Below, piece by piece: positions 4,420-53,987 of a DNA stretch of 55,385 bases; the first letter of the stretch is position 1, and the number at the start of each line of letters is the position of its first letter. The position numbers and the translations under genes are program-made. Location: the NCBI GenBank assembly GCA_016873395.1, contig VGXG01000014.1:1-55385 (forward strand), in the 5' to 3' direction. The stretch is from Nitrospira sp. Its GTDB lineage: Bacteria; Nitrospirota; Nitrospiria; Nitrospirales; Nitrospiraceae. The notes under the pieces are model-generated. The model did not search any database. It was given only the letters and a program-made list of their open reading frames with translations, and had not been told where the DNA came from.

Positions 4420-5274
4420 ATGAGCGCGTCAACAGCCCCCTATTCCAACCTACTCCGGGAGCTGGCCTCCCTGATGGTCGCGGTGGCGGGGGAATCCGTC
4501 ACGATGGTCAAGCGGGGTGCGCCGGATCGAGCCCTCGCGCTCAAGAAAACGCAGGAATGGGACATCTACCTGGAATTTTTGAAAATCTTGTTCAACCTGG
4601 CCGACCGTCTGTCGGTCCACTACCTGCCCATCAAGGAGCAACCCCTCTTCATGGATAGTCTGGAGGACACGGTCACCCAGCAACTGCAAACGGTCCTGGC
4701 TCCAGCCCTCGGCCCCGGCAGCGACCCGATGGAGGTCACCCTCGCGATCGGCAAGGCAGTGGCCAGCAGTCGAGAACGGTACGAGCGGTTCAAGTTTGTG
4801 GTCACCGAGGAGAGTAAGGCGAAGGAGGAGTTTCTCAAGCTCCTCGCCGAACACATCGCCCAACTCATGGGCGCAACCGGCAACGGTATGGTGCTCTCGG
4901 CGGCCACGCTCTGCGCCAGTTCCGCCATCGCGGCTATGAAGGCGGCCTTCGAAGGCGCCGTTTCCCAGGCAACCCTCAACCGGGCAGGTGCTCCGGTTGG
5001 CACTCAAGGTTACCCGGCCGGGCAGCACCGCGCAGCGGCCAGTCCGGTCAGAACCGGTACGGAGATCAAACTGGTCAGCGTCATGGCCACGGTACAGGGT
5101 GAAGAGGTGGAAACTCGCTGGGGCCTCCATCCACGCTTCCGGCAGGATCTGCGACCGGACGAAGCCCAGGAGCTGACCAAGCTCATGAACCGCATGACTC
5201 AGGTGCTGGGCCAGCGCTTTGCCTCAGTGGCCTTCTCGTCGGAGTGGCAGGCTTGGCAAATCGGCCACGCATAA
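4420..5274 (+). CDS. Conserved-looking protein of unknown function
   Basis: 284 residues. I do not recognise the family. It has no signal peptide or clear membrane segment, so it is probably cytoplasmic. The first 190 residues look helical, with an alanine-rich stretch near 165-185. The final 60 residues (EIKLVSVMATVQGEEVETRW onward) look like a separate beta-rich domain. The ATG follows GGAGG and a strong promoter, so the start is well supported. It lies just upstream of glgP in the same direction, but a functional link is not shown. Confidence 0.8.
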   Translation: MSASTAPYSNLLRELASLMVAVAGESVTMVKRGAPDRALALKKTQEWDIYLEFLKILFNLADRLSVHYLPIKEQPLFMDSLEDTVTQQLQTVLAPALGPGSDPMEVTLAIGKAVASSRERYERFKFVVTEESKAKEEFLKLLAEHIAQLMGATGNGMVLSAATLCASSAIAAMKAAFEGAVSQATLNRAGAPVGTQGYPAGQHRAAASPVRTGTEIKLVSVMATVQGEEVETRWGLHPRFRQDLRPDEAQELTKLMNRMTQVLGQRFASVAFSSEWQAWQIGHA

Positions 5275-5280
5275 GTTTGA

Positions 5281-5322
5281 AGAATTCTCTGCTGTCAGCA
5301 TTCAGCTATCAGCTTGGTATGG
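5281..5322 (+). repeat. Short-period repeat fused to a GGTATGG element end
   Basis: GCTGTCAGCATTCAGCTATCAGC (5291-5313) is a short-period sequence like that at 42750-42816. It runs into AGCTTGGTATGGAGG, the 3' end of the two-hairpin element, whose GGAGG then serves as the glgP ribosome-binding site. Confidence 0.55.
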
Positions 5323-5329
5323 AGGCGGC

Positions 5330-7489: not shown

Positions 7490-7506
7490 TCACGGCCTAT
7501 TGGCGC

Positions 7507-8943
7507 ATGCGGGTGATGCCACGATCGCCACGGTCCCTCTCAGCCTGGCTGCCGGTCCTGCTTCTCCTCACCGCCCCGGCTTCATCAGCCGCCTCTTCCA
7601 CGACGACAGGAGGCCCCCCCGTTCACGAGCGCGAGTCCACCGCGGCATTCAACCGAGCGCAGTACGACCGGGTCACCAACCTGTTCGAAACGCTGCCGCC
7701 TGAGCCCCCCCCTTCGACCGAATTCCTGCGGGTCGCCATGCTGAGTTATCTGCGCCTCGGCCAGGCCGACGCAGCCTGGAACCTCTATGCCCGTTTGGTA
7801 CCACCCGGGCAGCCGGACAAGCCTCGTTGGCTGCGCGACGTGGCTGTGTCCTTCCTTACCAGCCGCGTGCGCGATGCCCAGGAATACATCCGCATCACCG
7901 CCTACAGCGCCTTGGCGGACCTTGCCAGCAGCGACATGGTTCCCCTATTGGAAGACGGGTTGCTCGACTCGTCCGTCTTGGTCCGCGCCAAGGCCGTCGA
8001 AGGGTTGGGCCGGGTCAGTGAGCAAACCAAGCGTTCCAAGGAGACCGGGCAGGCTACGCGAGCCACCCAGGCTAACCCCGCCAGGGCCAGCCTCAAGCGC
8101 GCGCTGGACGATGCCGCCCCAACTGTGCGGATCGCGGCGCTCAACGCCCTGGGCGACTTGAAAGACTCCACCGCCCTGGATCGAATCGCCCGCATCGCAC
8201 GGATTGAAGAGGGAGCGGTCCATGTATTCGCCCTGGCGGCCCTGGTCAAGTTGGGCCGGTCGGAGGCACTGGGGGAAATCCTGAGCGCCGCGACGTTGCC
8301 GGACCAGGACTCCCGCATGGCGGCGCTGGGCGTGTTGGGCCGACTCAAGCGGCCCTCCAGCCTGTCGTTGCTGGGCCAATCCGTCTATGACCCGGACCCG
8401 TCCGTCCGGGCGTTTGCAGCGGGGGCCTTGGGAGAGTTCGGTGACCCTCAGGCGCTCTCGTCGCTCACACACGCGTTGGGAGATGAGAACCCGCGCGTCC
8501 GCAGCGTCGCTGCCGCCAGCCTGGGACGGTTGAAGCTGGCCCAAACCAAGCCGCTCCTGAAGCAGGCGGCGCGCGATCCGGTCGAACTGGCCCGGGCCGG
8601 AGCCATCGAGGGCCTGCTCAGGCTGGGAGACAGCGAAGCCGTCCTCTTGGCCGCCGACCTGGCGAAGCATGGAGACCCTTCGGTCCGCAGCGCCGCCGCC
8701 CTGGCCCTGGGACTGGCGGGGAATCGGAAAGCCCTGCCGGTCCTGGAACTGCTGCTCCAGGACCAGCAGCCGCAGCCTCGCTTGACGGCGGCCCGTGCTT
8801 TGGGCAAACTCGGCGGGCAGGCCGTGGTCCCGTGGCTGAAGAGGGCCCTTGCCGACACGGATCTGGCGGTCCGCATCACTGCCGCCGGGAGTCTGGCGCA
8901 GATTCTGTCACGCCCGCTTCGAAAACCAAGGGGTAGATCATAG
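7507..8943 (+). CDS. Exported HEAT-repeat protein
   Basis: About 478 residues. A signal peptide (SAWLPVLLLLTAPASSA region, residues about 12-28) is followed by a TPR-like helical stretch. Then come some ten HEAT/PBS-lyase-type repeats of about 31 residues (for example DPSVRAFAAGALGEFGDPQA). Such solenoids bind other proteins and have no catalytic motif. It begins 17 bases after glgP and probably shares its transcript. Two ATG codons (7507, 7516) are possible, and neither has a strong ribosome-binding site. Confidence 0.85.
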   Translation: MRVMPRSPRSLSAWLPVLLLLTAPASSAASSTTTGGPPVHERESTAAFNRAQYDRVTNLFETLPPEPPPSTEFLRVAMLSYLRLGQADAAWNLYARLVPPGQPDKPRWLRDVAVSFLTSRVRDAQEYIRITAYSALADLASSDMVPLLEDGLLDSSVLVRAKAVEGLGRVSEQTKRSKETGQATRATQANPARASLKRALDDAAPTVRIAALNALGDLKDSTALDRIARIARIEEGAVHVFALAALVKLGRSEALGEILSAATLPDQDSRMAALGVLGRLKRPSSLSLLGQSVYDPDPSVRAFAAGALGEFGDPQALSSLTHALGDENPRVRSVAAASLGRLKLAQTKPLLKQAARDPVELARAGAIEGLLRLGDSEAVLLAADLAKHGDPSVRSAAALALGLAGNRKALPVLELLLQDQQPQPRLTAARALGKLGGQAVVPWLKRALADTDLAVRITAAGSLAQILSRPLRKPRGRS

Positions 8944-8962
8944 ATCGTCGAGGGGGGGAACG

Positions 8963-9454
8963 ATGTTCAAGTTGCTCGGTTGGCTGATCCTGTTCGTCGC
9001 CGGTTTTACTGCCGGATACTACGCAGGCCAGAATCCGGTTGAAGAACTGCAACGATCGGTGTCTGATCTGACGCGGAGCGTCCTGGATGTCAGCACGGGG
9101 CTCCAACGGACCGTCCGGCTGCGCCACGGGCTCGTGGACGGCAAGGCCCATGTGGTCGAAGCAAAAGCGGAGCTTCTCGATAAGAATTACGGAAACGCCG
9201 CCACGGCCCTGGCGCAGGCCATCGAGAGCCTGGAGAGAGCCAGCGCGGTTGAGCGGGAGACCCGAGGCACGCAGAAGGTCAGGCCGTTGCTGGAGAAGGT
9301 TCGAGAAGTCCATCTCGAGCTCTCCATGGGACGGCCGATTCCGCGAACCAAGCTGGATGACATTCAAAAGGAACTGGACGCCCTGCTCGCTCCGCCGCCG
9401 CCGAAAGAGGCGAAAGCAGCCAAGGAACGGAAGGAGTCCAGAGAAAGAGAGTAA
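8963..9454 (+). CDS. Small membrane-anchored protein, unknown function
   Basis: 163 residues. One N-terminal membrane segment with a GxxxG-like face (FKLLGWLILFVAGFTAGYYA) is followed by a helical, probably coiled-coil body and a Lys/Glu-rich tail after a PPPP stretch. The ATG follows an AGGGGGGG ribosome-binding site. It lies 19 bases after the HEAT protein gene and converges on another HEAT-repeat gene. No named family is recognised. Confidence 0.82.
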   Translation: MFKLLGWLILFVAGFTAGYYAGQNPVEELQRSVSDLTRSVLDVSTGLQRTVRLRHGLVDGKAHVVEAKAELLDKNYGNAATALAQAIESLERASAVERETRGTQKVRPLLEKVREVHLELSMGRPIPRTKLDDIQKELDALLAPPPPKEAKAAKERKESRERE

Positions 9455-9463
9455 GCGGGCGGC

Positions 9464-10294
9464 TCAGGCGTTTGCGGCGCGTTTCTTCCAGGCGGCGAGA
9501 ATCCGCTCGACCCGCATCCGCACCACCAAATCCGGATCCTTCATGAGCGGCTTGATCGCCTCACGCCCCCGCTCGTCGCCGATCTTCTCCAGCGCGGCCG
9601 CGGCGGTCAGGCGGATGTACCAGTCCTTCTCCTGCAGCATCTCGATGAGGGGATCGATGGCTTTCTCGTTCTTGATGCGACCGAGGGCGATGACCGCCTG
9701 CTTGCGGATCAGCTCGTCTTTGTCCCGCAACGAGGCCACCAACTTCTCAATGGCCGGCTCCCCCAGCTCGACCAGAGCATCGGTTGTTTCTTCCTGGAAC
9801 TCATCGCTCCGCAACTGGGCGACCAGGGGGTCCAGCACCCGTTCGTCCTTGATCTTGCCCAACGCCCGAATGACAGCCCTCCGGCTGTCCCAGTCTCGAA
9901 GCCGCTTGATGAGCCCCTCGACCGCCGGTGAGCCGACCATCCCCAGCGCTTCGACAGCCGCTTCGCGCACCTGCCAATCCCCGTCTCGGAGGGCGCGCAG
10001 CAGGGGCTCAACGCAGCGCTCGTCCCCCATCTCGCCCAGGGTGATGACCGCCTCACGGCGCACGACCCAGTCGGTATCCTTCAACAGGTCGATCTGGATT
10101 TCAATCTCGTCCTTAACCTTCTCTTCATCCAGAACAACCTCTTCCGTCTGGTCGATGGCCGTGGCTTCCTCCGTCGCAGGAGCCTCGGCCATAGCCATGG
10201 CATCCGAGACCTGATCGGTCAGGGCGTCATCCCCTTCGCTCTCCGGATTTTCAGGCGGGGACAGATCAGTCACTTTTTTCTCGTCATCGACCAT
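9464..10294 (-). CDS. Cytoplasmic HEAT-repeat protein
   Basis: 276 residues. An acidic, disordered N-terminus of about 65 residues is followed by six or seven HEAT/PBS-lyase repeats (for example DTDWVVRREAVITLGEMGDE). There is no signal peptide, so unlike the HEAT protein at 7507 it should be cytoplasmic. It probably acts as a protein-binding scaffold; no catalytic residues are seen. The ATG has GGAGGAG eight bases upstream. It converges tail to tail with 8963-9454 with only nine bases between the stops. Confidence 0.87.
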   Translation of the reverse strand: MVDDEKKVTDLSPPENPESEGDDALTDQVSDAMAMAEAPATEEATAIDQTEEVVLDEEKVKDEIEIQIDLLKDTDWVVRREAVITLGEMGDERCVEPLLRALRDGDWQVREAAVEALGMVGSPAVEGLIKRLRDWDSRRAVIRALGKIKDERVLDPLVAQLRSDEFQEETTDALVELGEPAIEKLVASLRDKDELIRKQAVIALGRIKNEKAIDPLIEMLQEKDWYIRLTAAAALEKIGDERGREAIKPLMKDPDLVVRMRVERILAAWKKRAANA

Positions 10295-10372
10295 GAGCCA
10301 TTCTCCTCCATCCAGATCCTCTCGTCCTTAGTCCCTATCGTTCAGGCAAGAACAGCCGGAGCAAATTGATTG

Positions 10373-10609
10373 CTACCCGCCGGTCGCCGCTTCAGCCTTG
10401 GGCTCAGCCTTCCCGGCCTCTGTCCTCTTTCCAGCCGCATGGCGGAGCCTGATGGCCAAACTACGCCGCTTCCGCTGCGCCCGCTTGAGTCGTTTGTGCA
10501 GTGCGCGCAGGGCTGCGTTCCCTTCCGGGTTCTCCGTGCCGATCAGTCGTTCCCGAACCTTCTTTTTCAGCCGCGCTTCATCAGTCTCCACGGGGGTCTT
10601 CTTTGCCAT
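10373..10609 (-). CDS. Small basic protein, unknown function
   Basis: 78 residues from the ATG at 10609. GGAGGAG lies 11 bases upstream of that ATG, while an earlier in-frame ATG (10627) overlaps the ribosome-binding site. The middle is very rich in Lys/Arg (RLKRAQRKRRSLAIRLRHA) and the tail is Ala/Glu-rich, suggesting nucleic-acid or ribosome binding. That is inference only; no family is recognised. Confidence 0.7.
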   Translation of the reverse strand: MAKKTPVETDEARLKKKVRERLIGTENPEGNAALRALHKRLKRAQRKRRSLAIRLRHAAGKRTEAGKAEPKAEAATGG

Positions 10610-10738
10610 AAGATCATACTCCTCCATTGTCAGGACTCGTCATCGATCCACTGGTGCGAGAGAAGTTCTCAGTGTAGTGGAGACCCGTCAAGGCTGTCAA
10701 CCGGAGCAGGATCGGGAAGAAAAACGATCGGGGGAGGA

Positions 10739-11389
10739 CTAGGGAACGTAGAGCGACGCCACCTGGGAGACCCAGTGATCATCGGCAGACCAGTGGTCGT
10801 CCGTCAGTAAGTCGGCGATCCGGCGAGCGCGTCGTTCGCGCAGCAGATCGCCAGGGAACAGAGGCAAGGCGCGCGCGCCGCGCGCATCGTGCCCGCGAGC
10901 GGGTGACTCAGGATATTCGTGCAGGGGAATGAGGGAACGTCCGCCTTTCGCCGCCAGCCCGTCCGCCGCAAGGAGGTAGCCGCCGTGGCTCCCGATCACC
11001 TCGAGGGAGACCGCTGAGATTCCGTCCTCCATCATGCCCAGTTCCTCGGCCGCTGCATGGGAGAGGTCGATGATCCGGCCGTTCACATAGGGGCCCCGGT
11101 CATTGATGCGCACCTGCACCTGTTTCCCGTTCTTCACATTCGTCACCCGCACCACCGTCCCCAAAGGCAGCGTCCGATGAGCGCCGGTCAGCGCCTCCAT
11201 GTCATAGGTTTCGCCGCTGGCCGTCAGCCAGCCGTTGAAGTCCTGCCCGTACCAGGAGGCGATGCCCCGCTCTTTCATTCCCACATCCAGATCGGCCTGT
11301 CCTTTCGGAAGGCAGGTGCAGGCAGCCAGCAGCAAACCGACTAGAGAAACCATCATCCACCTGGTACAGAACTCAACGCTTGGACTCAC
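10739..11389 (-). CDS. rlpA: RlpA-like septal lipoprotein (double-psi beta-barrel)
   Basis: 216 residues from a GTG start preceded by AGGAGG. A lipobox (VGLLLAAC) predicts an outer-membrane lipoprotein. The DPBB domain follows with the family hallmarks GIASWYGQDFNGWLTASGE, AHRTLPLGTVVRVTN and INDRGPYVNGRIIDLS. RlpA proteins act on denuded septal glycan, in some species as lytic transglycosylases. There is no SPOR domain; the C-terminal 60 residues are low in recognisable motifs. It has its own promoter at 11532-11560. Confidence 0.92.
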   Translation of the reverse strand: MSPSVEFCTRWMMVSLVGLLLAACTCLPKGQADLDVGMKERGIASWYGQDFNGWLTASGETYDMEALTGAHRTLPLGTVVRVTNVKNGKQVQVRINDRGPYVNGRIIDLSHAAAEELGMMEDGISAVSLEVIGSHGGYLLAADGLAAKGGRSLIPLHEYPESPARGHDARGARALPLFPGDLLRERRARRIADLLTDDHWSADDHWVSQVASLYVP

Positions 11390-11531
11390 AAGGTCCTCCT
11401 CTTCGCGATAACCCCTGTTCCCTGTCCCCACAGCGCCCCGGATTACATCAGGGGGGTCAGGGCTGAACCAACTCGATACTTGGGATACGCCTGACGACTG
11501 GGGATAAGTCGAGGATGAACGAAGTGGGTGG

Positions 11532-11560
11532 ACTATAGCAATGGCCCGTCGGCAAGTCAA
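11532..11560 (-). promoter_or_regulatory. Sigma-70 promoter of rlpA
   Basis: On the minus strand TTGACT (11560-11555), a 17-base spacer and TATAGT (11537-11532). The predicted start near 11525 leaves a leader of about 136 bases before the GTG at 11389. The AT-rich stretch 11561-11604 separates it from the glgB stop, with no clear GC terminator. Confidence 0.82.
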
Positions 11561-11604
11561 GTTGAAACTTGAGATAAAAATAAAGCTGAAATATTTTCAA
11601 TGCC

Positions 11605-13809
11605 TTATGAATGCTTTAGAAAGAGAATTCCCAATGGTGGAAGAGTCAGGGATAAGGAATAAGGGAGTCCATGGCAGGGGATAGCCTCAGCCAGAACCTC
11701 TCCGCCGTTTCCTTGGTTACTCCCCCCATAGGCCGATGCATCGCTGTTGAGCAGCTCCCGGTACCGGCCAGAAACCGGGACCCCAATCCGATAGCCATAT
11801 CTGGGGACCGGCGTGAAGTTGCCGACGCAGAGGACCGAATCGGCTGGGTCCTGGGCTTGGCGGAGGAATGAGACGACGGACTGCTCGGCATCGCTGAAAT
11901 CAAGCCACCGGAAGCCAGACCAGTCGAAATCCACCTGCCACAAGGAGGGTTCCGCCCTATAGAGTCGATTGAGGGCTCGGACATAGCGTAGCAGCCCTTG
12001 GTGGGGATGATACTCGAGCAGATGCCAGGACAGGCTCTCATCATGGTTCCATTCCCGCCATTGCCCGAATTCCCCCCCCATAAACAGCACCTTTTTGCCA
12101 GGATGCCCGTACATGTAGCCAAGCAGGGCCCGGAGGTTGGCGAATTTCTGCCAATCATCCCCCGGCATCTTGGCCAGCAACGCCTGCTTGCCGTAGACGA
12201 CCTCGTCGTGCGAGAGGACCAGGACGAAGTTCTCACTGAAGGCATAGACCAAGCCGAACGTGAGCTTGTCCTGATGGTACTTGCGGTGGACAGGGTCCAG
12301 GTGAAAATACTCCAGGATGTCGTGCATCCAGCCCATGTTCCACTTGAGGCTGAAGCCCAACCCCCCCACATAGGTGGGGCGGGAAACCCCCGGCCAAGCG
12401 GTGGACTCCTCAGCGATGGTCAGGACACCCGGGTATTCCCGGTGCACCACGGTATTGAACTCTTTTAAGAATTCGACGGCCTCCAGGTTCTCGTGGCCGC
12501 CGTAGCAATTCGGGATCCATTCACCCGGCTGTCTCGCATAATCCAGGTAGAGCAGGGAGGCCACAGCGTCCACGCGCAGGCCGTCGATGTGGTACCGGTC
12601 CAGCCAAAAGAGGGCGCTGTTCAAGAGAAAATTGCGCACCTCCACCCGGCCGAAGTTGAAAATCCGGCTGTGCCATTCCGGATGGTAGCCGAGGCGCGGG
12701 TCAGCATGGTCATAGAGTTGAGTCCCATCGAACCAGGCCAGCCCATGAGGATCATCGGGAAAATGAGCCGGCACCCAGTCCATGATGACCCCGAGGCCCG
12801 CCCGGTGGCAGGCGTCCACAAAAGCCATGAACTCTTCCGGCTGGCCGTAGCGGCTGGTGGGGGCAAAGTAGCCGGTCGTCTGGTATCCCCAGGACCCATC
12901 AAAGGGATATTCGGTGATCGGCATCAATTCCAGGTGGGTATAGCCCAGGTCCTTCACATAGGGGATAAGTTTGGCTGCCAGCTCCAGATAGGTCAACCAG
13001 CGGTTGCCTTCTTCCGGGACCCGCATCCAGGACCCGAGATGGACCTCATAGAAGGATAGGGGGCCGCGTAACGGATCGCCGGAGGCTCGCGCCTCCATCC
13101 AATCGTGATCGCCCCACCGATACCCGGACAGGCTCCGCACGATCGAGGCGGTCTTAGGCCGGAGTTCCGCCGCAAAAGCATAGGGATCGGCCTTCAGGAA
13201 GGAGGCTCCCTGCTCCCGCGGCCTGATCTCGTACTTGTAGGCGGTCTCCTCGGGGACGTCCGGAATGAAGAGCTCCCAGAGGCCGGTCTGCCCCCGATTC
13301 CGCATGGCATGGCGTCGGCCGTCCCAGCCGTTGAAGTCACCGACGACGCTCACGCGTAGGGCGTTCGGAGCCCAGACGGCAAAGCGCACGCCGGCAACCC
13401 CCTCGATCGTCAGGGTCTGCGCGCCGAGCATCTCGTAAGCTCGGTAGTGGCGGCCTTCGGCGAACAGGTGCAGATCAAAGTCTGTGAACAGAGGCGGATA
13501 GGAATAGGGATCGTGGCGGTCCGTGACAGCCCCCCCCCGCTCCGCCACCCTGAGCTTGTATCGAACCTGCCCAATGGCGGCCGACACCGTTGCCTCATAC
13601 AGCCCTGCCTCATGGACAGGCTCCATTGGAATCGGGCTCCCCTGGCCGCCTTCCGGCAGGAGGCTGACCGACCGTGCTTCCGGCAAAAAGGCACGGACCA
13701 CCGTGGCCGGCGCGCCGTTTCGTGAAACCGGATGGGGTCCCAGGAGGGCAAAGGGGTCCCAGTGCTCTGCCTTCACCAGCCGTTCGATATGGTCGGCGAG
13801 GTCATCCAT
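11605..13809 (-). CDS. glgB: 1,4-alpha-glucan branching enzyme
   Basis: 734 residues. It transfers alpha-1,4 chains to make alpha-1,6 branches in glycogen. The N-terminal carbohydrate-binding (CBM48-like) region holds [20 protein letters not shown]. The GH13 barrel has the nucleophile region GLRVDAVAS (Asp near 413), the acid/base region IAEESTAW (near 466) and LSHDEV (near 533). Length and the [11 protein letters not shown]-terminus match full-size GlgB. Its promoter starts about two bases before the ATG, so the mRNA is probably leaderless. Confidence 0.96.
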
Positions 13810-13817
13810 CGGATGTT

Positions 13818-13846
13818 ACTGTATCCGATCTGCGGATGAGAGGCAA
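13818..13846 (-). promoter_or_regulatory. Promoter of glgB giving a near-leaderless transcript
   Basis: On the minus strand TTGCCT (13846-13841), a 17-base spacer and TACAGT (13823-13818). Transcription should begin near 13811, two bases before the ATG at 13809. No Shine-Dalgarno sequence can fit. Confidence 0.7.
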
Positions 13847-13903
13847 TGAACCGCAGGAATCCGATCGTGCCATCGAGTGGACGCCCCAACTGAACATGTC
13901 ATC

Positions 13904-13932
13904 TTGACACACTTGGGCCACTCCCCTAACAT
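13904..13932 (+). promoter_or_regulatory. Sigma-70 promoter of the mscS-like gene
   Basis: Perfect TTGACA (13904-13909), a 17-base spacer and TAACAT (13927-13932). It is divergent from the glgB promoter. The predicted start near 13939 leaves a leader of about 58 bases. Confidence 0.83.
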
Positions 13933-13996
13933 CGCCGACAATCCGATGGCCGTTTAGCCGGCCGGCAATCAAACCGTCAACCTCCGCATTGAGACA

Positions 13997-15094
13997 ATGC
14001 CCACCAAAGGCTCACCTGACTTTGTTCGCCTCCTGATCGCGCTGGCGGTCTTCGTCGGGATGGCTGGCCTCACGATGGGACTCCGCCACCTGGCCTTCCG
14101 CGCGTTGCACCGCTGGGGGTCGAGGACCAGCACGGTTATGGACAGCGTCATCTTCAAGAGCCTCCGCCTCCCCTCCATCGCCTGGTGTATCTTGATCGGA
14201 CTGTATAGTGCGTTGGACCAGGCGCGCCTGCCCCCGCGGCCGAGCGCGCTGGCCCTCAATCTCGTGTACGGTCTGCTGGTCCTGTCAGTGACTGCCGCCA
14301 TCGCCAACCTCTCCAGCGCCACGTTGAGCCATACCCTGACGGAACACCGGCTCCCGATCCCGGCAACGGGGCTCTCGCTGATGATCTTCAAGGTCACCAT
14401 CTGGGTCCTTGGCGGTCTGGTGCTCCTCAGCAGCCTGGGCGTCTCGATCACCCCAATTCTGACCGCCCTGGGAGTGGGAGGACTGGCGGTCGCCCTGGCT
14501 TTGCAAGAAACTCTCTCCAACCTCTTCGCCGGCCTGCACCTGTTGATCTCACAGCCGATCCGGGTCGGAGACTTCGTCAGGCTTGAAACAGGGTTGGAGG
14601 GGTACGTGGCCGACATCGGATGGCGGGCGACGAAACTCAGGACTCTGCCGAATAACGTCATCGTGGTGCCGAACAGCAAGATGGCCCAATCCATCCTGGT
14701 TAATTACTACTTGCCGGAGCCGAAAATGGCGATCTCCATTCAGGTCGGGACCAGCTACAATGCGGACCCTGAGCAGGTGGAGCGAGTGCTCCTTGAAGAA
14801 ACCTCCAAGGCGATCGGCCAGGTTCCAGGGCTTCTGATCGAGCCAAGCCCGACCGTCCGGTTCATCCCCGGCTTCGGGGAGTCTTCTTTAGACTTCACCG
14901 TGACCTGCCACGTGCGACAGTTCGAAGACCAGTACCTCGTCCAGCATGAACTCCGAAAACGTATTCTGAAGCGCTTCCGCGAAGAAGGGATCGAGATTCC
15001 TTTTCCCCACCGTATCGTCCGTCTGGAGGCCGCCCAGGCCGGGTCAGCAGACCGCCCCCCACGGGCAGCATCGGCAGAAGAAGCGATCCCGTGA
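13997..15094 (+). CDS. MscS-family mechanosensitive channel
   Basis: 365 residues. These inner-membrane channels open under osmotic downshock. Four N-terminal membrane segments are followed by the pore-lining, Gly/Ala-rich helix GVGGLAVALALQETLSNLFAG and the beta domain that starts DFVRLETGLEGYVADIGWRA. It continues with the conserved VPNSKMAQSILVNYYL and a C-terminal alpha/beta domain ending in FPHRIVRLE. It has three more membrane helices than minimal E. coli MscS would need for the pore unit, so a YnaI-like arrangement is possible. Its stop overlaps the start of the next gene (GTGA). Confidence 0.93.
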   Translation: MPTKGSPDFVRLLIALAVFVGMAGLTMGLRHLAFRALHRWGSRTSTVMDSVIFKSLRLPSIAWCILIGLYSALDQARLPPRPSALALNLVYGLLVLSVTAAIANLSSATLSHTLTEHRLPIPATGLSLMIFKVTIWVLGGLVLLSSLGVSITPILTALGVGGLAVALALQETLSNLFAGLHLLISQPIRVGDFVRLETGLEGYVADIGWRATKLRTLPNNVIVVPNSKMAQSILVNYYLPEPKMAISIQVGTSYNADPEQVERVLLEETSKAIGQVPGLLIEPSPTVRFIPGFGESSLDFTVTCHVRQFEDQYLVQHELRKRILKRFREEGIEIPFPHRIVRLEAAQAGSADRPPRAASAEEAIP

Positions 15095-16138
15095 CCGCGT
15101 TATCGCTCCGGACACGCACCTCTGGCGCGGCACGTTCCGAGACAGGAGGCCCTGCCTGGGCGGCGGTTTTATCCTACGCCCTGTCTCCCTTGCATCGACA
15201 CCTGGTATGTGCGACCGGAGAACGCCGGACGCTCAGCGCGCGGCTGATATGTCTGCTCCTCACCATCAGGTTGATCCTTCCCCTCGTCTCCCTCTCCTTC
15301 CTCATCGGCGACGAGCTGACGCGGGCCTATACGGCGATCGGAGGGCTGGCCGAGCGGGCAGCCAAGGGGGAGTCCCTCCTGCCGGATCAGTGGCGTCAAT
15401 ATCCCATGATGGTGGCGGCGATCGAGCGGTTGGATGAGTACGAGCGGCTCACCGGGAAAATGTTCGAGCCGACCTCATCGAGAACTTGGCGGACCTGGGA
15501 AAGTTGCTTCTAGGTGAACTCACCAGATTGGCGACGAACGTGCTCGTGGGAGTGATCGAACTGCTGTTCCTCCCTCTCTGCTGCTTTTTCTTTTTCGGGA
15601 CGGGGACCGCTTGGCGGCCTGGCTGCAGGACGTCCTGCCGTTCTCACGGAAACGGCAGCGGCAGGCAATACAACGTTTCGACGAGATCGTGACCGGGTCC
15701 ATTTACGGCAACGCCGTCGTCGCGCTCGTAGTCGGAAGCGTGGGCGGACTCGCGTTTTTCGCGGTCGGGTTTCATTTACCGTTCCTGTGGGAGCGGCAAT
15801 GGGAATGCTGGTCTACCTGCCGATTCCCGGCGTGTCGCTGGTCTGGGTCCCGGGCGCCCTCTACCTGTTTTTTCAGTCGGCCTACCTCAAGACAGCCGTT
15901 CCCTGCATGGCCGGCGCGGTCATCCTTTTTCTCGACCATGTCGTCAAAAACCTGTTGGCTGTCGGCCGGGTGAAGCTGCATCCGCTGCTGGTGATCTTCA
16001 GCGTCCTGGGTGGGCTCAAACTGTTCGGGCTGCTGGGGCTGGTGGCCGGGCCGCTCACCGTCGCCATGTCGATGGCTTTGCTGGACGTCTATCGCATCGG
16101 ACGGGCGGAAAGCTCGGGAAAGGAAGGGGGTGACCTAA
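15091..16138 (+). pseudogene. AI-2E family transporter (PerM/YdiK-like), frameshifted
   Basis: The encoded protein matches the multi-pass AI-2E transporter family. Pieces such as ALSYALSPLHRHL, LGKLLLGELTRLATNV, VTGSIYGNAVVALVVGSVGG, MGMLVYLPIPGVSLVWVPGA and KLFGLLGLVAGPLTVAMSMA occur in the right order over about 350 codons. They lie in different frames. Shifts occur near 15470, near 15595 (beside T-rich runs), near 15790, and probably at the GGGGG near 16130, where another frame reads GTGACCTAA. Length and order are otherwise intact. This is either a recent pseudogene or a set of sequencing errors. The GTG start overlaps the mscS-like stop. Confidence 0.8.
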
Positions 16139-16143
16139 GGAGA

Positions 16144-16168
16144 GACCGGAGCGTGACACGCTCCGGTC
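16144..16168. terminator. Hairpin between convergent genes
   Basis: Perfect 10-bp stem GACCGGAGCG/CGCTCCGGTC with loop TGACA, just past the transporter remnant and facing the convergent lipoprotein gene. No T-run follows on either strand, so it could act as a bidirectional end or mRNA-protecting hairpin. Confidence 0.65.
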
Positions 16169-16210
16169 GTCATAGACCTCGCCACGGACAACGAGCCTGC
16201 ACCGTGATGG

Positions 16211-16822
16211 TTACTTCAGCCGCAGGAGGTTGTTGTCCACCTTCGTGTTCATCAGTAGCTTGTCAAGGCTGTCGGTGAGGACTTCGCTGGCAAGTTCCTG
16301 CGCGTCTTCCGGATCAAACCAAAAGACCTTCTGCATGCCGTCCCCGTTCAACGTCATACGGACGATGCTCCCATCCGCTTTGTTCGTGCCTTCCACCACC
16401 AGCTTGGTTCTGACCGTGATCTCCGTGTGCGCAAAGCGGCTCTCGGCGTTCACCGATAAATTCAGCAGCTTGCCGGAGAATGTCACATCCGGGCTCCCTT
16501 CCACGCGCCAGCCTTTCCGCTTGAGATAGTCGGCCATGACCTTTGCCACCACGTCTCCCGGCTTGCCGCCCGGCACGTTGAAGGTCGTCTCGCCACCCCA
16601 GAGATGATGCCGCACGCCCAGCCGGTCCTTCTCAGGCCTCGCGTCTTCAAAGGACGCCACCGTGCCGGTGAGGCTGTCGGCCTTCTTCTGCGGCGCTTCG
16701 GAGGAGGACGGCACCGCCTGCAAATCCAGATTGACCGCTCCTTTGGTCGCGCAACCGGCCAAGGCCAGCAGCGCTACCGTGAGCACTGCCAGATATGTCT
16801 GTCGCTGAGTCCTCCTGTTCAC
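16211..16822 (-). CDS. YajG-like lipoprotein
   Basis: 203 residues from a GTG at 16822, placed five bases after GGAGG. An ATG at 16834 in the same frame lies inside the repeat. The lipobox LLALAGC predicts a lipoprotein. The body (TGTVASFEDARPEKDRLG, VMADYLKRKGWRVEG, LLNLSVNAE) resembles the YajG family of uncharacterised outer-membrane lipoproteins. A two-hairpin element (16831-16894) separates it from pal, which lies upstream on the same strand. Confidence 0.82.
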   Translation of the reverse strand: MNRRTQRQTYLAVLTVALLALAGCATKGAVNLDLQAVPSSSEAPQKKADSLTGTVASFEDARPEKDRLGVRHHLWGGETTFNVPGGKPGDVVAKVMADYLKRKGWRVEGSPDVTFSGKLLNLSVNAESRFAHTEITVRTKLVVEGTNKADGSIVRMTLNGDGMQKVFWFDPEDAQELASEVLTDSLDKLLMNTKVDNNLLRLK

Positions 16823-16830
16823 GAGTGCCT

Positions 16831-16894
16831 CCATACCAACCTTCGGTTGAGCCGCCGCGTTCGATCAAATCGCGGCGGATAGTTTTTTGCCTCC
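16831..16894 (-). repeat. GGTATGG-family element before the YajG-like gene
   Basis: On the minus strand: GGAGGCAAAAAACTATCC, stem CCGCCGCG/CGCGGCGG around ATTTGATCGAA, then CTCAACCGAAGGTTGGTATGG. The small second hairpin is CAACC-GAA-GGTTG. It ends in TATGGAGG, which provides the ribosome-binding site. Confidence 0.88.
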
Positions 16895-16962
16895 AGCGTC
16901 CTTTTCGCCCCTGATTGGCTGGCAGACTCTTCCCGAACCCTGAGCCGCCTTCGCCGAAAAAC

Positions 16963-17568
16963 TTATTGCAAGGCCAGGTGCGCCCGCCGGTTCTTCTGCC
17001 AGCAGTCCTTATTGTGCTCCGTGCAGAACGGCTTCTCCTTGCCGTAGCTGGTAACCTGGATCTGGGCCGTCGGCACCCCCAGGTCGCCCAGGTACCGCAT
17101 GGCCGCCTGAGCGCGACGCTCTCCCAAGACCAGGTTGTAGGCCAACGTACCGCGTTCGTCACAGTGACCGGAGATCAGCAGCTTCCAGCCGTTCTCTGAC
17201 TTAAGCAGGCTGGCATCCCGCTCCAACGTCGCTTTCCCGTCGTTTCGGATCGCGGCTCGGTCATAGTCGAAGAACACATCTGCGAGCTTGGAAGCCAGTT
17301 CGGCCAACCGGTCCGTCGCGGCAGGGGCCGCTTCAGTCGGGGCCTGCCTAGCCACCAGCGGAGGCGCTTCCGGCTCCGCCACGCGGGCCTCCGGCGGAGC
17401 CTCCGGCTTGCCGAAGCCCATCTCTTCGCGGGAGGGGGCGCTGGGACCTGGCACTAGAGTCTGATCGCCCGCCGAGGTGGACAGATTCTTGCTGCAACCG
17501 GCCAGCAAGACCGTGACGGCCACGCTGAGGTACAGCGAGACAAGACAGGTATTCTGAGACATCTTCAT
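16963..17568 (-). CDS. pal: Peptidoglycan-associated lipoprotein Pal (copy 1)
   Basis: 201 residues. The lipobox VTVLLAGC anchors it in the outer membrane. A Pro/Ala-rich linker follows, then the OmpA-like peptidoglycan-binding domain with VFFDYDRAAIR, ISGHCDERGTLAYNLVLGER and KNRRAHLAL. Pal links the outer membrane to the cell wall and to Tol. PFCTEHNKDCW near the C-terminus could form a disulfide. The ATG at 17568 follows AAAGGAAC and precedes a typical signal peptide. A second paralog lies at 23624-24223. Confidence 0.93.
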   Translation of the reverse strand: MKMSQNTCLVSLYLSVAVTVLLAGCSKNLSTSAGDQTLVPGPSAPSREEMGFGKPEAPPEARVAEPEAPPLVARQAPTEAAPAATDRLAELASKLADVFFDYDRAAIRNDGKATLERDASLLKSENGWKLLISGHCDERGTLAYNLVLGERRAQAAMRYLGDLGVPTAQIQVTSYGKEKPFCTEHNKDCWQKNRRAHLALQ

Positions 17569-44896: not shown

Positions 44897-45949
44897 TTAT
44901 ACCGTCTGTTTTCGGATACGGCCCCACATGGCCGTACCTGCGTAGCCGCAGGCGCCGGTGAGGGTCGTCAGGCCGATCATGCGGTACACGGACCCGCGGG
45001 AAATCTTGACGGTCACGGTGGGGTCAAGCAGATCGGGCGACCTGAGGACCAATCGGAGGGTTTCACCGGCTGAAAGGATCGGCCACATGCAAGCCAGCCG
45101 CAGCCGGACCTCCTGTCGTGGAATAGCCAGAGTGTAAAGCCAGCCCTGATCCAGGTGCTCCAGCGCCATCGCAACCAGTCGCTTCAGCACCGGCCGGAAG
45201 GCCGTCAGCGCATCCTTCTTCAGCAGGTCGGCCGGAGTGAGGCCCGATTCCTGAAGCAGTGGCTCTGGCACATAGCACCGCCCGCGCTGGAGGTCGCGGC
45301 TGAGATCTTTGAGAATGTTGGTCATTTGCAGGCCCTTCCCGAACCGGACGCCGATCCGGGCCATATCCGCCGCCTTCCACGACCGGAGCGAGGATAGATG
45401 CCCGCATATGAGATCGGTCCAGAACTCTCCCACGCAGCCGGCGACGAGATAGGTGTACTGATCCAGTTCCTCCAGCGTCTTGAGGGCGGTAAGCCGGCTT
45501 ACTGAGTCGCCGGGGAAGACTGTCAGATCCATTTCCATTCCGTTGGTCAGGGTGATCATGAGCCGTTGCACCCTCGCACGGTCTTCCGGCGAGAAATCCA
45601 GATACAACCGAAAACAGTCCTCGAGTCGTTCCAGCAGGGTCCGTTCCGCCGAATCAGTCTGGCACGGAATCAACACAGCCTGGATCGCGCGCACGTCCTC
45701 CCAGCGTACGGGATCGACGGCAAACTGCGCTCGGAACCGATGCAGACACTCCAGTCGCCGCGGCCGGTCGATCAGATCCGTGTCGGCGATGGTATCCGCG
45801 GCGCGGGCAAAGAGATAGGACAGGCTGACCTGATCGCGGACGACGCTCGGGACAACGACAAGGGTCGTATAGAACAGGCGGGACACGCGCCTGAGAAGGT
45901 CTCGCAGCAGCGCCCGCTTGTCAGAGCCAGTATCGGCAGGGAGCGCCAC
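44897..45949 (-). CDS. Squalene/phytoene synthase-family protein (squalene synthase type)
   Basis: 350 residues. It condenses two prenyl diphosphates head to head. The first Asp motif is in FARAADTIADTD (about 47-58), the second in MTNILKDLSRDLQRGRCYVP (about 212-231), both needed to bind Mg-diphosphate. Length and the C-terminal hydrophobic end (MIGLTTLTGACGYAGTAM) fit single-protein squalene synthase rather than HpnC/HpnD pairs. The GTG start shares one base with the cupredoxin stop (TAGTG), so the two are translationally coupled. Confidence 0.9.
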   Translation of the reverse strand: MALPADTGSDKRALLRDLLRRVSRLFYTTLVVVPSVVRDQVSLSYLFARAADTIADTDLIDRPRRLECLHRFRAQFAVDPVRWEDVRAIQAVLIPCQTDSAERTLLERLEDCFRLYLDFSPEDRARVQRLMITLTNGMEMDLTVFPGDSVSRLTALKTLEELDQYTYLVAGCVGEFWTDLICGHLSSLRSWKAADMARIGVRFGKGLQMTNILKDLSRDLQRGRCYVPEPLLQESGLTPADLLKKDALTAFRPVLKRLVAMALEHLDQGWLYTLAIPRQEVRLRLACMWPILSAGETLRLVLRSPDLLDPTVTVKISRGSVYRMIGLTTLTGACGYAGTAMWGRIRKQTV

Positions 45950-46380
45950 TAGCGGGCTTCCAGCCGGCCTTCCATGCCCTTTTCCCTGTGACTTTTGAAA
46001 AAGAGCAGTTGTTTGTCGCAGTAGAACGTAAAGGCCCCCGGTTGCGTGGGCGTGAAGCGAACCGTGACGGTCTTGCCGGCCTTGACATCCTGTTCCACGT
46101 CCAACCCGGCAGTCGGCTCTTTGAGAAGGAAATTATGCGGAACAATGTCCGTCACGCTGGTGAGGGTCAATTCCACCGGTTTACCGGCCTGCACGATCAG
46201 GTGAGAGGGAGTGTAGGAGTAGCTATCCAGGATGATCGTGGCGCGCTGGATGCCGTCGGCGCCGAGAGTCAGTTCGACCGCCTCCCCTTCCGCCCCAGAG
46301 GCAACCTTGACCATCCAGGCCAGCAAGAGGGCTGCCGCAAGAGCAAACCGACGCGCGATTCCCGCCCGAGCCCTACTCAC
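45949..46380 (-). CDS. Exported cupredoxin-domain protein
   Basis: 143 residues from a GTG at 46380. A signal peptide ends near VASGAEG. The cupredoxin ligands are His82 (VPHNFL), Cys121 (TFYCDK), His131 and Met136 (SHREKGM). The Cys-to-His gap (x9) is longer than in plastocyanin or azurin (x2-x4). It probably binds copper in the periplasm as an electron carrier or copper buffer. The gene overlaps the squalene-synthase gene by one base, an unusual pairing. Confidence 0.87.
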   Translation of the reverse strand: MSRARAGIARRFALAAALLLAWMVKVASGAEGEAVELTLGADGIQRATIILDSYSYTPSHLIVQAGKPVELTLTSVTDIVPHNFLLKEPTAGLDVEQDVKAGKTVTVRFTPTQPGAFTFYCDKQLLFFKSHREKGMEGRLEAR

Positions 46381-46537
46381 GAACCACTTTCTAGCAGATG
46401 CAGCGGGATCGGTCAACCAGCAATACCCCACCTATAACGCCGAGATGCGGGTCGTCCTCGGCCCTTGACGAAGGACAGAGCGGGATTATCTTGAGGGCGA
46501 CTTACCGGCTAAGGTGCATTTTGCCCGCGAGGGATTG

Positions 46538-46543
46538 TATAAT
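46538..46543 (+). promoter_or_regulatory. -10 box of htpX
   Basis: A perfect TATAAT (46538-46543). The 17-base-spaced -35 would be TGCATT (46515-46520), which is weak. Predicted start near 46550, about 57 bases before the ATG. Confidence 0.6.
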
Positions 46544-46606
46544 GAGCACATCTTGCTCGTCAGGACGGATGAGCAGTCCGCCGTCCGTACCAAAGGAGGA
46601 AGCTCG

Positions 46607-47491
46607 ATGAAGTGGCTGAAAGGGATCGGGTTGCTGTTGATCGCCAACGTGCTGATCTTCGTGACCCTCTCCATCTCGTTTCATGTGATCGTGAATTTCA
46701 TCCTGCCCGCCTTCGGCATCGATGTCCGCGGCGCGGTGAATCAGGAAGATCTGGTTTGGGCCCTGGTGATCGGGTTCGGCGGAGCCTTCATGAGCCTGGC
46801 CTTCTCCAAGCAGATGGCCAGGTCTATGTTGAACTGCCAACAGATCACGCAGCCGCGGGCCCAAGCCGAGCAGGTGATCTACGGAGCGGTGCAGGAGATC
46901 GCCCAGCGTCTGCGCATCCGGATGCCGGAAGTCTGGGTCTACGAAGCCGAGGACCCCAATGCCTTCGCCACAGGACCCAGCAGGAACAATTCGATGGTGG
47001 CCGTTTCAACCGGCCTGCTCAACAACCTGAATGAGCAGGAAGTAAAGGCGGTCCTGGCCCATGAGATGGGCCACGTCTATAACGGCGACATGTTCACCAC
47101 CACCGTTCTGGCCGGATTGATGAACACCTTCGTGTACTTCATCAGCCGCTGGGTCTACCGGAACTTGGCCGAGCGCAACGAGATGCTGGCCTTCGGCGTG
47201 TATATCTTTCTCCAGATCATCCTGTCGTTCTTGGCCATGATCCCGATCAGTTGGTTCTCCCGCCGACGGGAGTTTGCCGCCGACGCTTTCTCAGCGAAAG
47301 TCTATGGACGGGATGCCATGATCTCGGCGCTCCAGGCGATCGACCGCTGGATCAACCGGGCTCAGGTCGAATACAGCACCCAGGACGCGCTGGCGACCAT
47401 GAAGATCTCCGGCAAGTCCACCGGCTTCATGCACCTGTTTGCCACACACCCGCCGATCGAGGAGCGGGTGGCCGCTCTCCAGAGGCTGTAA
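46607..47491 (+). CDS. htpX: HtpX-like membrane zinc metalloprotease (M48)
   Basis: 294 residues. HtpX degrades misfolded membrane proteins. Two N-terminal membrane helices, active-site HEMGH (residues 152-156), two more helices, and the Glu ligand in SRRREFAADAF are in the family order. DPNAFATGPSRNNSMVAVSTGLL is a classic HtpX stretch. The ATG follows AAAGGAGG. The glutathione peroxidase gene follows 11 bases after its stop. Confidence 0.96.
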   Translation: MKWLKGIGLLLIANVLIFVTLSISFHVIVNFILPAFGIDVRGAVNQEDLVWALVIGFGGAFMSLAFSKQMARSMLNCQQITQPRAQAEQVIYGAVQEIAQRLRIRMPEVWVYEAEDPNAFATGPSRNNSMVAVSTGLLNNLNEQEVKAVLAHEMGHVYNGDMFTTTVLAGLMNTFVYFISRWVYRNLAERNEMLAFGVYIFLQIILSFLAMIPISWFSRRREFAADAFSAKVYGRDAMISALQAIDRWINRAQVEYSTQDALATMKISGKSTGFMHLFATHPPIEERVAALQRL

Positions 47492-51417: not shown

Positions 51418-51631
51418 GATGAACCCTCCTCGAATCGATGGCATCCTCGGGACCCAGCAAGTCTATTATGCAGCACCCTTTCTGAACTTGCCAGTCGCAC
51501 CCACATGGCCGCCGTCCGCAGAAGAGGAAAATCTTTTGACAACCGCGCCCGACCTGTGCCACCCTGTTCACTAGTGCAGGGCCTCCTTGTCAAAAACATA
51601 CGTGGATCAGCCCGCCAAGGGAGGCTCTCGC

Positions 51632-52150
51632 ATGTTCCTGACCATCCACGGTAAGACCTTCGCCGTTCTCATCGCCCTCACTCTCTTCACCGCCGCACGC
51701 GGCCGCGCGGCCGACCTGACGACACCGGAGGGAGTGCTGCGGACGCTGGTCCAGGCCAACGTGGACAAAGACTTCGCCACGATTTCCAGTCTGATGGCCC
51801 ACGACCAGGACATCATCAGCTACACGATCGAAGGGCGCAAATACGTCGGATGGACGGATTTCGCCCGCGACATGAAGGACGAATTCGAGACGGTGACGCG
51901 CCTGGAGATCCCCGTCACGCAGTTGAAGGTCTGGACGCGCGGCGACACCGCCTGGTTTGTCATGGAGCTGGACTATACCCGCTACCTCGGCAGCGGCAAG
52001 GAAGAGGTGCGAATGATGCTGCCCCTGCGCGAAACCGGGGTCATGGAGCGGCGAAACGGCCAATGGACCCTGGTGACATTTCACGAATCCTTCCGGAGCG
52101 ATGCCGCCATCATGCCCAGCAGCAATCAGGCCTTTCCAGCCCTGAAGTAA
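51632..52150 (+). CDS. Exported SnoaL/NTF2-like protein
   Basis: 172 residues from the ATG at 51632, after AGGGAGG. A signal peptide (FAVLIALTLFTAARGRA) is followed by an NTF2-like alpha+beta barrel with VLRTLVQANVDKDFATISSL, YVGWTDFARDMKDEFETVTR and QWTLVTFHESFR. Such domains bind small molecules or act as SnoaL-type enzymes. The active site cannot be read here. First of several co-directional exported genes. Confidence 0.85.
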   Translation: MFLTIHGKTFAVLIALTLFTAARGRAADLTTPEGVLRTLVQANVDKDFATISSLMAHDQDIISYTIEGRKYVGWTDFARDMKDEFETVTRLEIPVTQLKVWTRGDTAWFVMELDYTRYLGSGKEEVRMMLPLRETGVMERRNGQWTLVTFHESFRSDAAIMPSSNQAFPALK

Positions 52151-52216: not shown

Positions 52217-52957
52217 GTGCTGATGAGGCAGCTTGCGGCCTGCTCCCTGCTGCTGTTGCTGATGGCTTCCACGGCTGCGTCGCAGCCGCCGGCGTCGCCG
52301 TCCGATTATCCTCAATCGCTCGAGAAAGAGCTGAAGAGGCTGCTGGACGCTCAGGCCCAGGATTCCTCCGACTCCCGGCTGCTCATTCAACTGGCGGGCC
52401 TCTACCTTGAGATGGGCGAAGAACTCTACGCCGAAAAGGCCCAGAAGCTGGCCGCTTTCGAGGAAGGCGCCAGGCTGGCCAAGCAAGCCCTGGCCCTGGA
52501 CGAACACAATGCAGAGGCCCACTACCTCTATGCAGCCAACCTGGGCAGCGCGGCGGACGTCAAAGGGATGGCTGCCTCGCTCCTGGCGCTGGACGAAATC
52601 AAAACCCATGCACGGCGTACGTTGGAACTGCAAAAAGATCATGTGGCGGCGCTGCACATGGCCGGCATGATGTTGGAAGAGTTGCCCCAGTTCATGGGAG
52701 GCAACAAGTCTGTGGCCTTGGACTACCTCAAGCGGGCCGTGACCATCGATCCGAACTATTCACATGCCCGACTAGACCTGGCCAAGATGTACCTGAAGCG
52801 CCGCGATCCTGATGCAGCCAAGCGAGAGTTGCTGGCGATCGTGGGCATGGACCACCCGAGCGATGCCTATGCCTGGGCGCGCCGGTACCGCCCCGAGGCG
52901 GAACGACTCCTGGCCTCGTCACAACCAGGCGAGTCCGTGGAAACCAGTGCCAGGTAG
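52217..52957 (+). CDS. Exported TPR-like protein
   Basis: 246 residues from a GTG (52217) after AAGGAAGG; an ATG two codons on (52223) is possible. A signal peptide (QLAACSLLLLLMASTAA) is followed by four or five TPR-type helix pairs (ALDEHNAEAHYLYAANLGSA, DPNYSHARLDLAKMYLKRRD). It is 31 bases upstream of the copper-monooxygenase-like gene and may be co-transcribed, possibly acting as an assembly factor (inference). Confidence 0.85.
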   Translation: MLMRQLAACSLLLLLMASTAASQPPASPSDYPQSLEKELKRLLDAQAQDSSDSRLLIQLAGLYLEMGEELYAEKAQKLAAFEEGARLAKQALALDEHNAEAHYLYAANLGSAADVKGMAASLLALDEIKTHARRTLELQKDHVAALHMAGMMLEELPQFMGGNKSVALDYLKRAVTIDPNYSHARLDLAKMYLKRRDPDAAKRELLAIVGMDHPSDAYAWARRYRPEAERLLASSQPGESVETSAR

Positions 52958-52988
52958 GCTGCATGGATCAAAGAGGAGGCCTGTCCTT

Positions 52989-53987
52989 ATGAAGCAACTA
53001 GTCCTGGCGCTGGTGTGGGGTTTGATCTCAACCGGAGCCGCCTTTGCGAGCGGCAATCACGATCACGGCGGCCAGGTTTCATCCTCCTTGGAGGAGAAGA
53101 CCAAGGTCACGTTGGAGGGGAATACCTTGACCATTACCTTCGGGCCGATGAATCTGCCAACCGGCCATGATGGCGACCTGGCTGCCAGCATTCCCAAGCA
53201 TATCTTCCAGGTCCCCAAGGACCGATTCCTGGTCGGCTACAAATCGGCGATCTTCACGAAAGACGGAACGCCCCTGCCGCGACAATGGCTCCATCATGTT
53301 CTATTGCTGAACCTCGACAAGGACAGCGTGTCCTGCCCGGGGGAGCCGCTGTTTTTTGCCGGGGCGGGCATGGAAATGACCGAGACGCGCTTTCCGGCCG
53401 GCTACGGAGTCAAGCTGGAGCAAGGTAAAAAGTTGATGGTGGTCGTGGCCTTCTATCACAAGGCTCTGCCGACCAAGGACGTCATGGCCACGTTCACGAT
53501 GGAGTTGGCCCCGGAAGGGGCGCCGGTGCAGCCGATGGACGTCTATCAGGTCGGCGTCAACATCGTGTGTTACAGCAAGTTCGACCAGCGTGGCGAGAAC
53601 CAGACCGACGAGGGGATCAGAATCGATGCCGGAGTGCAGGTACTGTCGGCGCCGCTCAAGTTCCGCATGGACGGCTGCGTGAGGTTCGCCTACCCCCATG
53701 GCCATGACCAATTGCTCCTCATTGCGCTCGACAACAAAACCACCAGGAAGACCCTGCTCCGGACCGTGCCGGACGTCGAGATGGACGGCAACTTCCGGGC
53801 CTTCCAGTCCCACCAAGTCTACAAAGACGAGCGAGGGTTTTCAGTGAACACCCGAGACGACTACGAGATGACCATGGTCTACCATCACCCCTTACACGAC
53901 CCCCAGGAACAGCACGGCATGGGGAATTACCTCCTCTATATGACGCCGGGCGTCTGTTCCGAGGACGCGTCAGCGTCGGCGCGCTGA
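52989..53987 (+). CDS. Exported protein with the copper type II monooxygenase (PHM-like) fold
   Basis: 332 residues from the ATG at 52989, nine bases after GGAGG. The signal peptide ends near AFA-SG (20), followed by NHDHGG. The order matches the peptidylglycine alpha-hydroxylating monooxygenase core: His102-His103 (WLHHVLLLN), His157 (FYHK), His237-x-His239 (YPHGHD) and Met311 (HGMGNYLLYM). These correspond to the two copper sites (His-His-His; His-x-His plus Met). RFPAGYGVKL and VRFAYPHGHDQL match conserved core stretches. The substrate is unknown. Assignment rests on reading the motifs, not on a search. Confidence 0.75.
   Translation: MKQLVLALVWGLISTGAAFASGNHDHGGQVSSSLEEKTKVTLEGNTLTITFGPMNLPTGHDGDLAASIPKHIFQVPKDRFLVGYKSAIFTKDGTPLPRQWLHHVLLLNLDKDSVSCPGEPLFFAGAGMEMTETRFPAGYGVKLEQGKKLMVVVAFYHKALPTKDVMATFTMELAPEGAPVQPMDVYQVGVNIVCYSKFDQRGENQTDEGIRIDAGVQVLSAPLKFRMDGCVRFAYPHGHDQLLLIALDNKTTRKTLLRTVPDVEMDGNFRAFQSHQVYKDERGFSVNTRDDYEMTMVYHHPLHDPQEQHGMGNYLLYMTPGVCSEDASASAR

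Follow-up and report, generated by a model that had tools for sequence, protein, structure and literature searches.

The window analysed here, a stretch of 55,385 nucleotides from Nitrospira sp., carries a gene for a PHM-like, apparently exported protein that probably works like a copper protein of the PHM/DBH type. PHM (peptidylglycine alpha-hydroxylating monooxygenase) and DBH (dopamine beta-hydroxylase) are copper oxygenases with which animals make hormones and neurotransmitters. On balance, we take it to be a periplasmic protein with two domains and two copper sites that is likely an uncoupled monooxygenase. A putative monooxygenase activity is plausible. For now, the protein is most aptly classed as a highly divergent bacterial variant, and by sequence criteria it is not a family member. 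The initial annotation, which had proposed a PHM-like copper monooxygenase, fares unevenly: the ligands, their conservation, the similarity of one segment and the match of a partial model to DBH speak for a copper protein of the PHM/DBH type, and no sequence family test supports placing it among the copper type II monooxygenases.

The gene and its predicted copper ligands

The gene and its notable parts are as follows.

52974-52979, + strand: AGGAGG ribosome-binding site, read directly, 9 nt 5' of the ATG
52989-53987, + strand: gene of the PHM-like exported protein (open frame, ribosome-binding site, third-position divergence, orthologues)
52989-53048, + strand: predicted Sec signal peptide, residues 1-20, with cleavage after AFA (sequence inspection)
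53292-53297, + strand: H102-H103, predicted CuH ligands, invariant in 59 sequences and aligned with the HH of rat PHM
53388-53408, + strand: RFPAGYG (residues 134-140), aligned with RLPKGVG of rat PHM
53457-53459, + strand: H157, the last of the three predicted CuH ligands, kept in 58 of 59 sequences
53685-53705, + strand: FAYPHGH (residues 233-239), in which H237 and H239 are predicted CuM ligands, both invariant in 59 sequences
53919-53921, + strand: M311, predicted CuM methionine, in GMGNYLLYM (PHM: EMCNLYIMYYM), invariant in 59 sequences

The open frame encodes 332 amino acids plus a stop and is present as a single copy in the window's genome. Compared with the orthologue in locus L004, it shows 43, 24 and 114 differences at codon positions 1, 2 and 3, respectively. 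The concentration of changes at third codon positions indicates that the gene is real, protein-coding and under purifying selection. The initial description of the product as exported agrees with a signal-peptide-like start read by eye; export to the periplasm is supported but not proven. The mature protein contains 12 His and 13 Met, with a conserved His-rich stretch at its N-terminus in which H24 is found in all 59 sequences. C116, C194 and C230 are invariant in 59 sequences and C323 is present in all 58 that reach its position; these four conserved cysteines would fit an exported, disulphide-bonded protein.

The six ligands of copper type II monooxygenases are found in order in the PHM-like family. 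The initial annotation had placed the copper ligands in the order HH, H, HxH, M, and this order was borne out, although the five positions counted there correspond to six ligands; the RFPAGYG and FAYPHGH stretches that it named were likewise located. H102, H103, H237, H239 and M311 are invariant across 59 distinct family sequences. Only one sequence departs at H157: it comes second in a pair of tandem paralogues of one genome (G012) and carries H157D together with N313T. In human DBH, the CuH ligands are H262, H263 and H333, and the CuM ligands are H412, H414 and M487 (PMC4846438). The ligand spacings are 54/80/72 in the PHM-like protein, 70/79/73 in human DBH and 64/70/70 in rat PHM.

We estimated how often such a pattern arises by chance. 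With generous spacings, shuffling the mature protein 100,000 times reproduced the ligand order 179 times, and shuffling the conserved columns alone did so 4 times in 100,000. No conserved-column shuffle out of 100,000 reproduced it with spacings restricted to the range of PHM, DBH and the PHM-like protein, a narrow range fixed after this protein had been seen. Because the pattern was picked after reading the sequence, these shuffle figures are somewhat optimistic. The pattern is absent from all 103 neighbouring ORFs.

Comparison with PHM, DBH and other beta-sandwich proteins

Family models do not recover the protein. No usable match came from Pfam, NCBIfam or PDB sequences, whether the query was the protein itself, either of two alignments or a consensus. 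The initial annotation had pointed to the copper type II monooxygenase families as a check by HMM search, and the search gave no support: the protein, 31 and 19 family members and a hand-made consensus had no match to PF01082 or PF03712 even at E 10, let alone above the curated cut-off, in a search whose positive control, rat PHM, scored 5e-44. Similarly, no match to PF03712 exceeded the cut-off in sets of 148 and 78 genomes. Full-length, unanchored hhalign comparisons of the PHM-like family with rat PHM or DBH gave scores within those of decoys and were not significant. An ungapped, ligand-anchored BLOSUM score was not significant either (2925 of 20,000 shuffles). The gapped, ligand-anchored score over all segments reached a z of 1.4 for PHM and 0 for DBH, and only the segment from HH to H stood out; in the segment test, the CuM half had no residual similarity beyond the ligands. 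The rat PHM sequence and the DBH stretch used in these comparisons were checked against the PDB text.

The HH-to-H segment was compared with the ligands left out, by global alignment of the family profile from HH to H157 with rat PHM from HH to H172. The score was bettered by 4 of 3000 shuffles and by 3 of 4000 real protein segments, with z between 2.7 and 4.0 across several gap penalties; since this segment is one of several and was singled out afterwards, the result should be discounted about fourfold. The alignment contains one 10-residue gap, at the place where PHM has an extra Cys-rich loop. The protein resembles PHM (PF01082 + PF03712; PDB 1phm, 1sdw) in the HH / H / HxH / M order, in the HHxLL, RxPxGxG and MxN contexts, in an HH-to-H segment alignable with one gap, in containing cysteines and, apparently, in being secreted. 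It differs from PHM in the lack of detectable full-length similarity and in the shorter HH-to-H loop, and it is bacterial and has no PAL domain.

An AF2 model, built from two sequences only, was poor as a whole (pLDDT 46.6) and usable in the N-terminal domain alone, where several blocks reach 70-79. In this model, HH begins one predicted strand and H157 lies just past the end of another. A Foldseek search of 350,542 PDB chains ranked human DBH (4zel) first, with E 5.4e-3 and probability 1.00, over about half of the poor model; PHM was absent from the top 50 PDB matches of the full AF2 model. The model and the Foldseek search of the C-terminal domain alone were uninformative, and the full model searched against viral structures retrieved generic beta proteins only. 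We give the DBH match moderate weight, and for the CuH domain alone; a PHM/DBH fold of the N-terminal half is supported but not proven. DBH shares the ligand types and spacings with the PHM-like protein and is the best PDB match of the partial model; unlike DBH, the protein has neither a DOMON nor a dimerisation domain, its mature core comprises about 290 residues, and the sequence similarity between the two is not significant.

Varied jelly-roll proteins followed close behind DBH in the Foldseek list (E about 0.01-0.05). This proximity, together with the lack of a significant family match, would suit an unrelated exported jelly-roll protein whose conserved His and Met residues match the PHM pattern accidentally or serve a different metal. 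The same reading could also accommodate H299 (59 of 59 sequences) and H60 (58 of 59), which are conserved as well and have no explanation from the PHM pattern. We nevertheless consider it distinctly unlikely, given the shuffle test on ligand order, the PHM-like HH-to-H segment and the rank of DBH as the top structural match. Double jelly-roll proteins such as PNGase F / DUF2961 (PMC8812541) likewise have two domains and are mostly beta. PNGase F and PHM belong to one Pfam clan, CL0612. Neither Pfam nor the listed Foldseek top 50 returned PNGase F or DUF2961 as a match. Double jelly-roll proteins of this type are not known to have the copper ligands.

Distribution and genomic neighbourhood

The PHM-like gene is present in 43 of 61 genomes, a set that consists of 60 relatives and the genome of the window. 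When 396 genomes of the phylum were scanned with a profile, the gene turned up in about 105 of the 110 from the window's own family (f1, taken to be Nitrospiraceae) and in a few from families f2, f3 and f29, a count that excludes seven weak matches. The rest of the phylum gave no convincing match; the weak matches inspected as possible distant relatives there turned out to be gene-tail remnants or TPR-like noise. A scan of genome contigs with the single protein, which detects only very close relatives, found a relative at 83% identity in a Nitrospira sp. MAG. Plasmids and viral contigs yielded no relatives, and our literature searches turned up no account of this family, nor of any PHM relative from Nitrospira.

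Some loci carry traces of the gene. In L080-L083 (genomes G391, G304, G194 and G266), an unrelated gene has a remnant of the PHM-like C-terminus, NYLLYMTAGGC, joined in frame to its start; such remnants, seen in several genomes of one genus, perhaps mark lost copies. In-frame stops lie within or near the match in G330 (C43:1213-2050, split in two), G037 (C233), G049 (C12) and G053 (C17), suggesting decay, assembly error or a match that runs past the gene end.

Four further genes in the window are relevant to the context.

51587-52150, + strand: exported SnoaL_3/NTF2-like protein, conserved partner (Pfam 4.5e-14)
52217-52957, + strand: exported TPR protein, whose gene immediately precedes the PHM-like one (Pfam TPR_19 4.4e-11)
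45949-46431, - strand: exported cupredoxin (blue-copper-like), candidate electron donor (Pfam Cupredoxin_1 3.1e-13)
46514-47491, + strand: HtpX-type M48 membrane protease (Pfam 4.2e-36)

The TPR and NTF2-like genes noticed upstream in the initial annotation are confirmed by Pfam, and both have signal-peptide-like starts as read by eye; that of the NTF2-like protein probably begins from a downstream ATG. Almost every f1 locus has the exported SnoaL_3/NTF2-like gene upstream of the PHM-like one. The TPR gene between the two is found only in the window's clade, where YqeY and then a LOG-like gene follow. In several loci, the NTF2-like/PHM-like pair is placed between a PP2C phosphatase gene and a gene for a PAS/PilZ protein of ~1400 residues. 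Elsewhere in the family, the NTF2-like partner often has an extra C-terminal domain with the motif W-E-[IV]...TLDEQGNG (L033 8257-9207, L087 6164-6769, L048 6211-6681). This domain also occurs alone beside the PHM-like gene, and Pfam recognised it in neither of the two proteins checked.

The window's clade and f2 share varying subsets of four genes: squalene/phytoene synthase, cupredoxin, HtpX-type protease and the PHM-like gene. In two f2 loci, L036 and L037, the cupredoxin and PHM-like genes stand directly side by side in divergent orientation, and in L034-L037 the HtpX-type protease lies near the PHM-like gene. The cupredoxin copies (45949-46431, - strand, in the window; 2096-2539 in L036; 3434-3847 in L037) come from two taxonomic families. 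They have a long Cys-to-His loop, with C-x9-H-x4-M in the window copy.

The Nitrospira family is a copper-dependent group. This dependence and the near-universal presence of the gene in the family could be explained by a periplasmic copper carrier, store or sensor, with a PHM/DBH core that kept both sites and binds copper but has no oxygenase activity. The conserved His-rich N-terminus points the same way, as do the nearby cupredoxin, TonB receptors near the gene in one genome, the PP2C phosphatase and large PAS/PilZ protein that adjoin it in several loci, and the absence of the PHM substrate residues. Yet both full sites, the CuM methionine and N313 (the Asn two after M311, in 58 of 59 sequences) included, are kept almost without exception, which is more than a mere store would need, and we judge such a role to be rather unlikely.

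Proposed mechanism, electron supply and substrate

For the favoured two-copper protein of the PHM/DBH type, we infer the fold of the CuM domain, copper binding, catalysis, the electron donor and the substrate. The N-terminal beta-sandwich would hold CuH via H102, H103 and H157, and the C-terminal one would hold CuM via H237, H239 and M311. Enzymes of this class have two copper sites about 11-14 angstroms apart, or 4-5 in the closed form, and hydroxylate C-H bonds in a reaction that depends on O2 and a reductant. In PHM and DBH, O2 is bound and hydroxylation takes place at CuM, with CuH relaying an electron (PMC4846438). The most likely mechanism here is the same: O2 and substrate would react at CuM, the second electron would arrive by way of CuH, and a small substrate of the periplasm or envelope would be hydroxylated at a C-H bond. 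As bacteria generally do not make ascorbate, the electrons would come from a redox protein. The syntenic cupredoxin would be the best candidate: it is blue-copper-like, its gene has stayed close to that of the putative two-copper protein, and it would be a natural choice for electron delivery.

A wider proposal is that the family forms a bacterial branch of the two-copper monooxygenases of the PHM/DBH type, belonging to the core of the Nitrospira family, lying below the reach of family models, fed by cupredoxin and not by ascorbate, and oxidising a periplasmic substrate; we put this forward tentatively, as a doubtful but specific possibility. The PHM/DBH enzyme class is described as small and found in eukaryotes in the DBH structure paper (PMC4846438). 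If the proposal is true, two-copper hydroxylation chemistry, usually restricted to eukaryotes, would extend to bacteria, and a conserved bacterial branch would bear on the origin of the mechanism and offer a small single-chain model of it. A testable function would likewise be gained for a protein that no family model matches but that almost all sampled genomes of a major nitrifying group carry, and Nitrospira would have a new candidate for its use of copper.

The residues that bind the substrate in PHM are not kept. In PHM, the peptide carboxylate is bound by R240 and Y318 (an Arg two before HxH and a Tyr four after the Met). In the PHM-like protein, these positions are occupied by Y235 (59 of 59 sequences) and L315 (58 of 59). 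A peptide with a C-terminal glycine is therefore an unlikely substrate, and peptide amidation by this protein appears unlikely from the sequence.

For the same reason, we hold a peptide-tailoring monooxygenase, PHM-like in substrate class and acting on a modified peptide, to be very improbable; moreover, no lyase (PAL) gene was noticed nearby. What recommends this idea is the layout around the two paralogues of G012, where ThiF, YcaO, nitroreductase, Dyp peroxidase and TonB receptor genes are arranged as in a TOMM-type cluster. However, this layout is seen in one genome only, and one of the two paralogues lacks a CuH ligand. In this stretch (L032, G012 C1:843000-860000, at 4443-16966; L090, at 959-2855), the tandem PHM-like paralogues lie on one strand between two TonB receptors, in line with the Dyp peroxidase, nitroreductase, YcaO and ThiF genes and with two small, similar ORFs of 113 and 125 aa. 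The resemblance of this locus to a TOMM peptide cluster hints at peptides in that genome.
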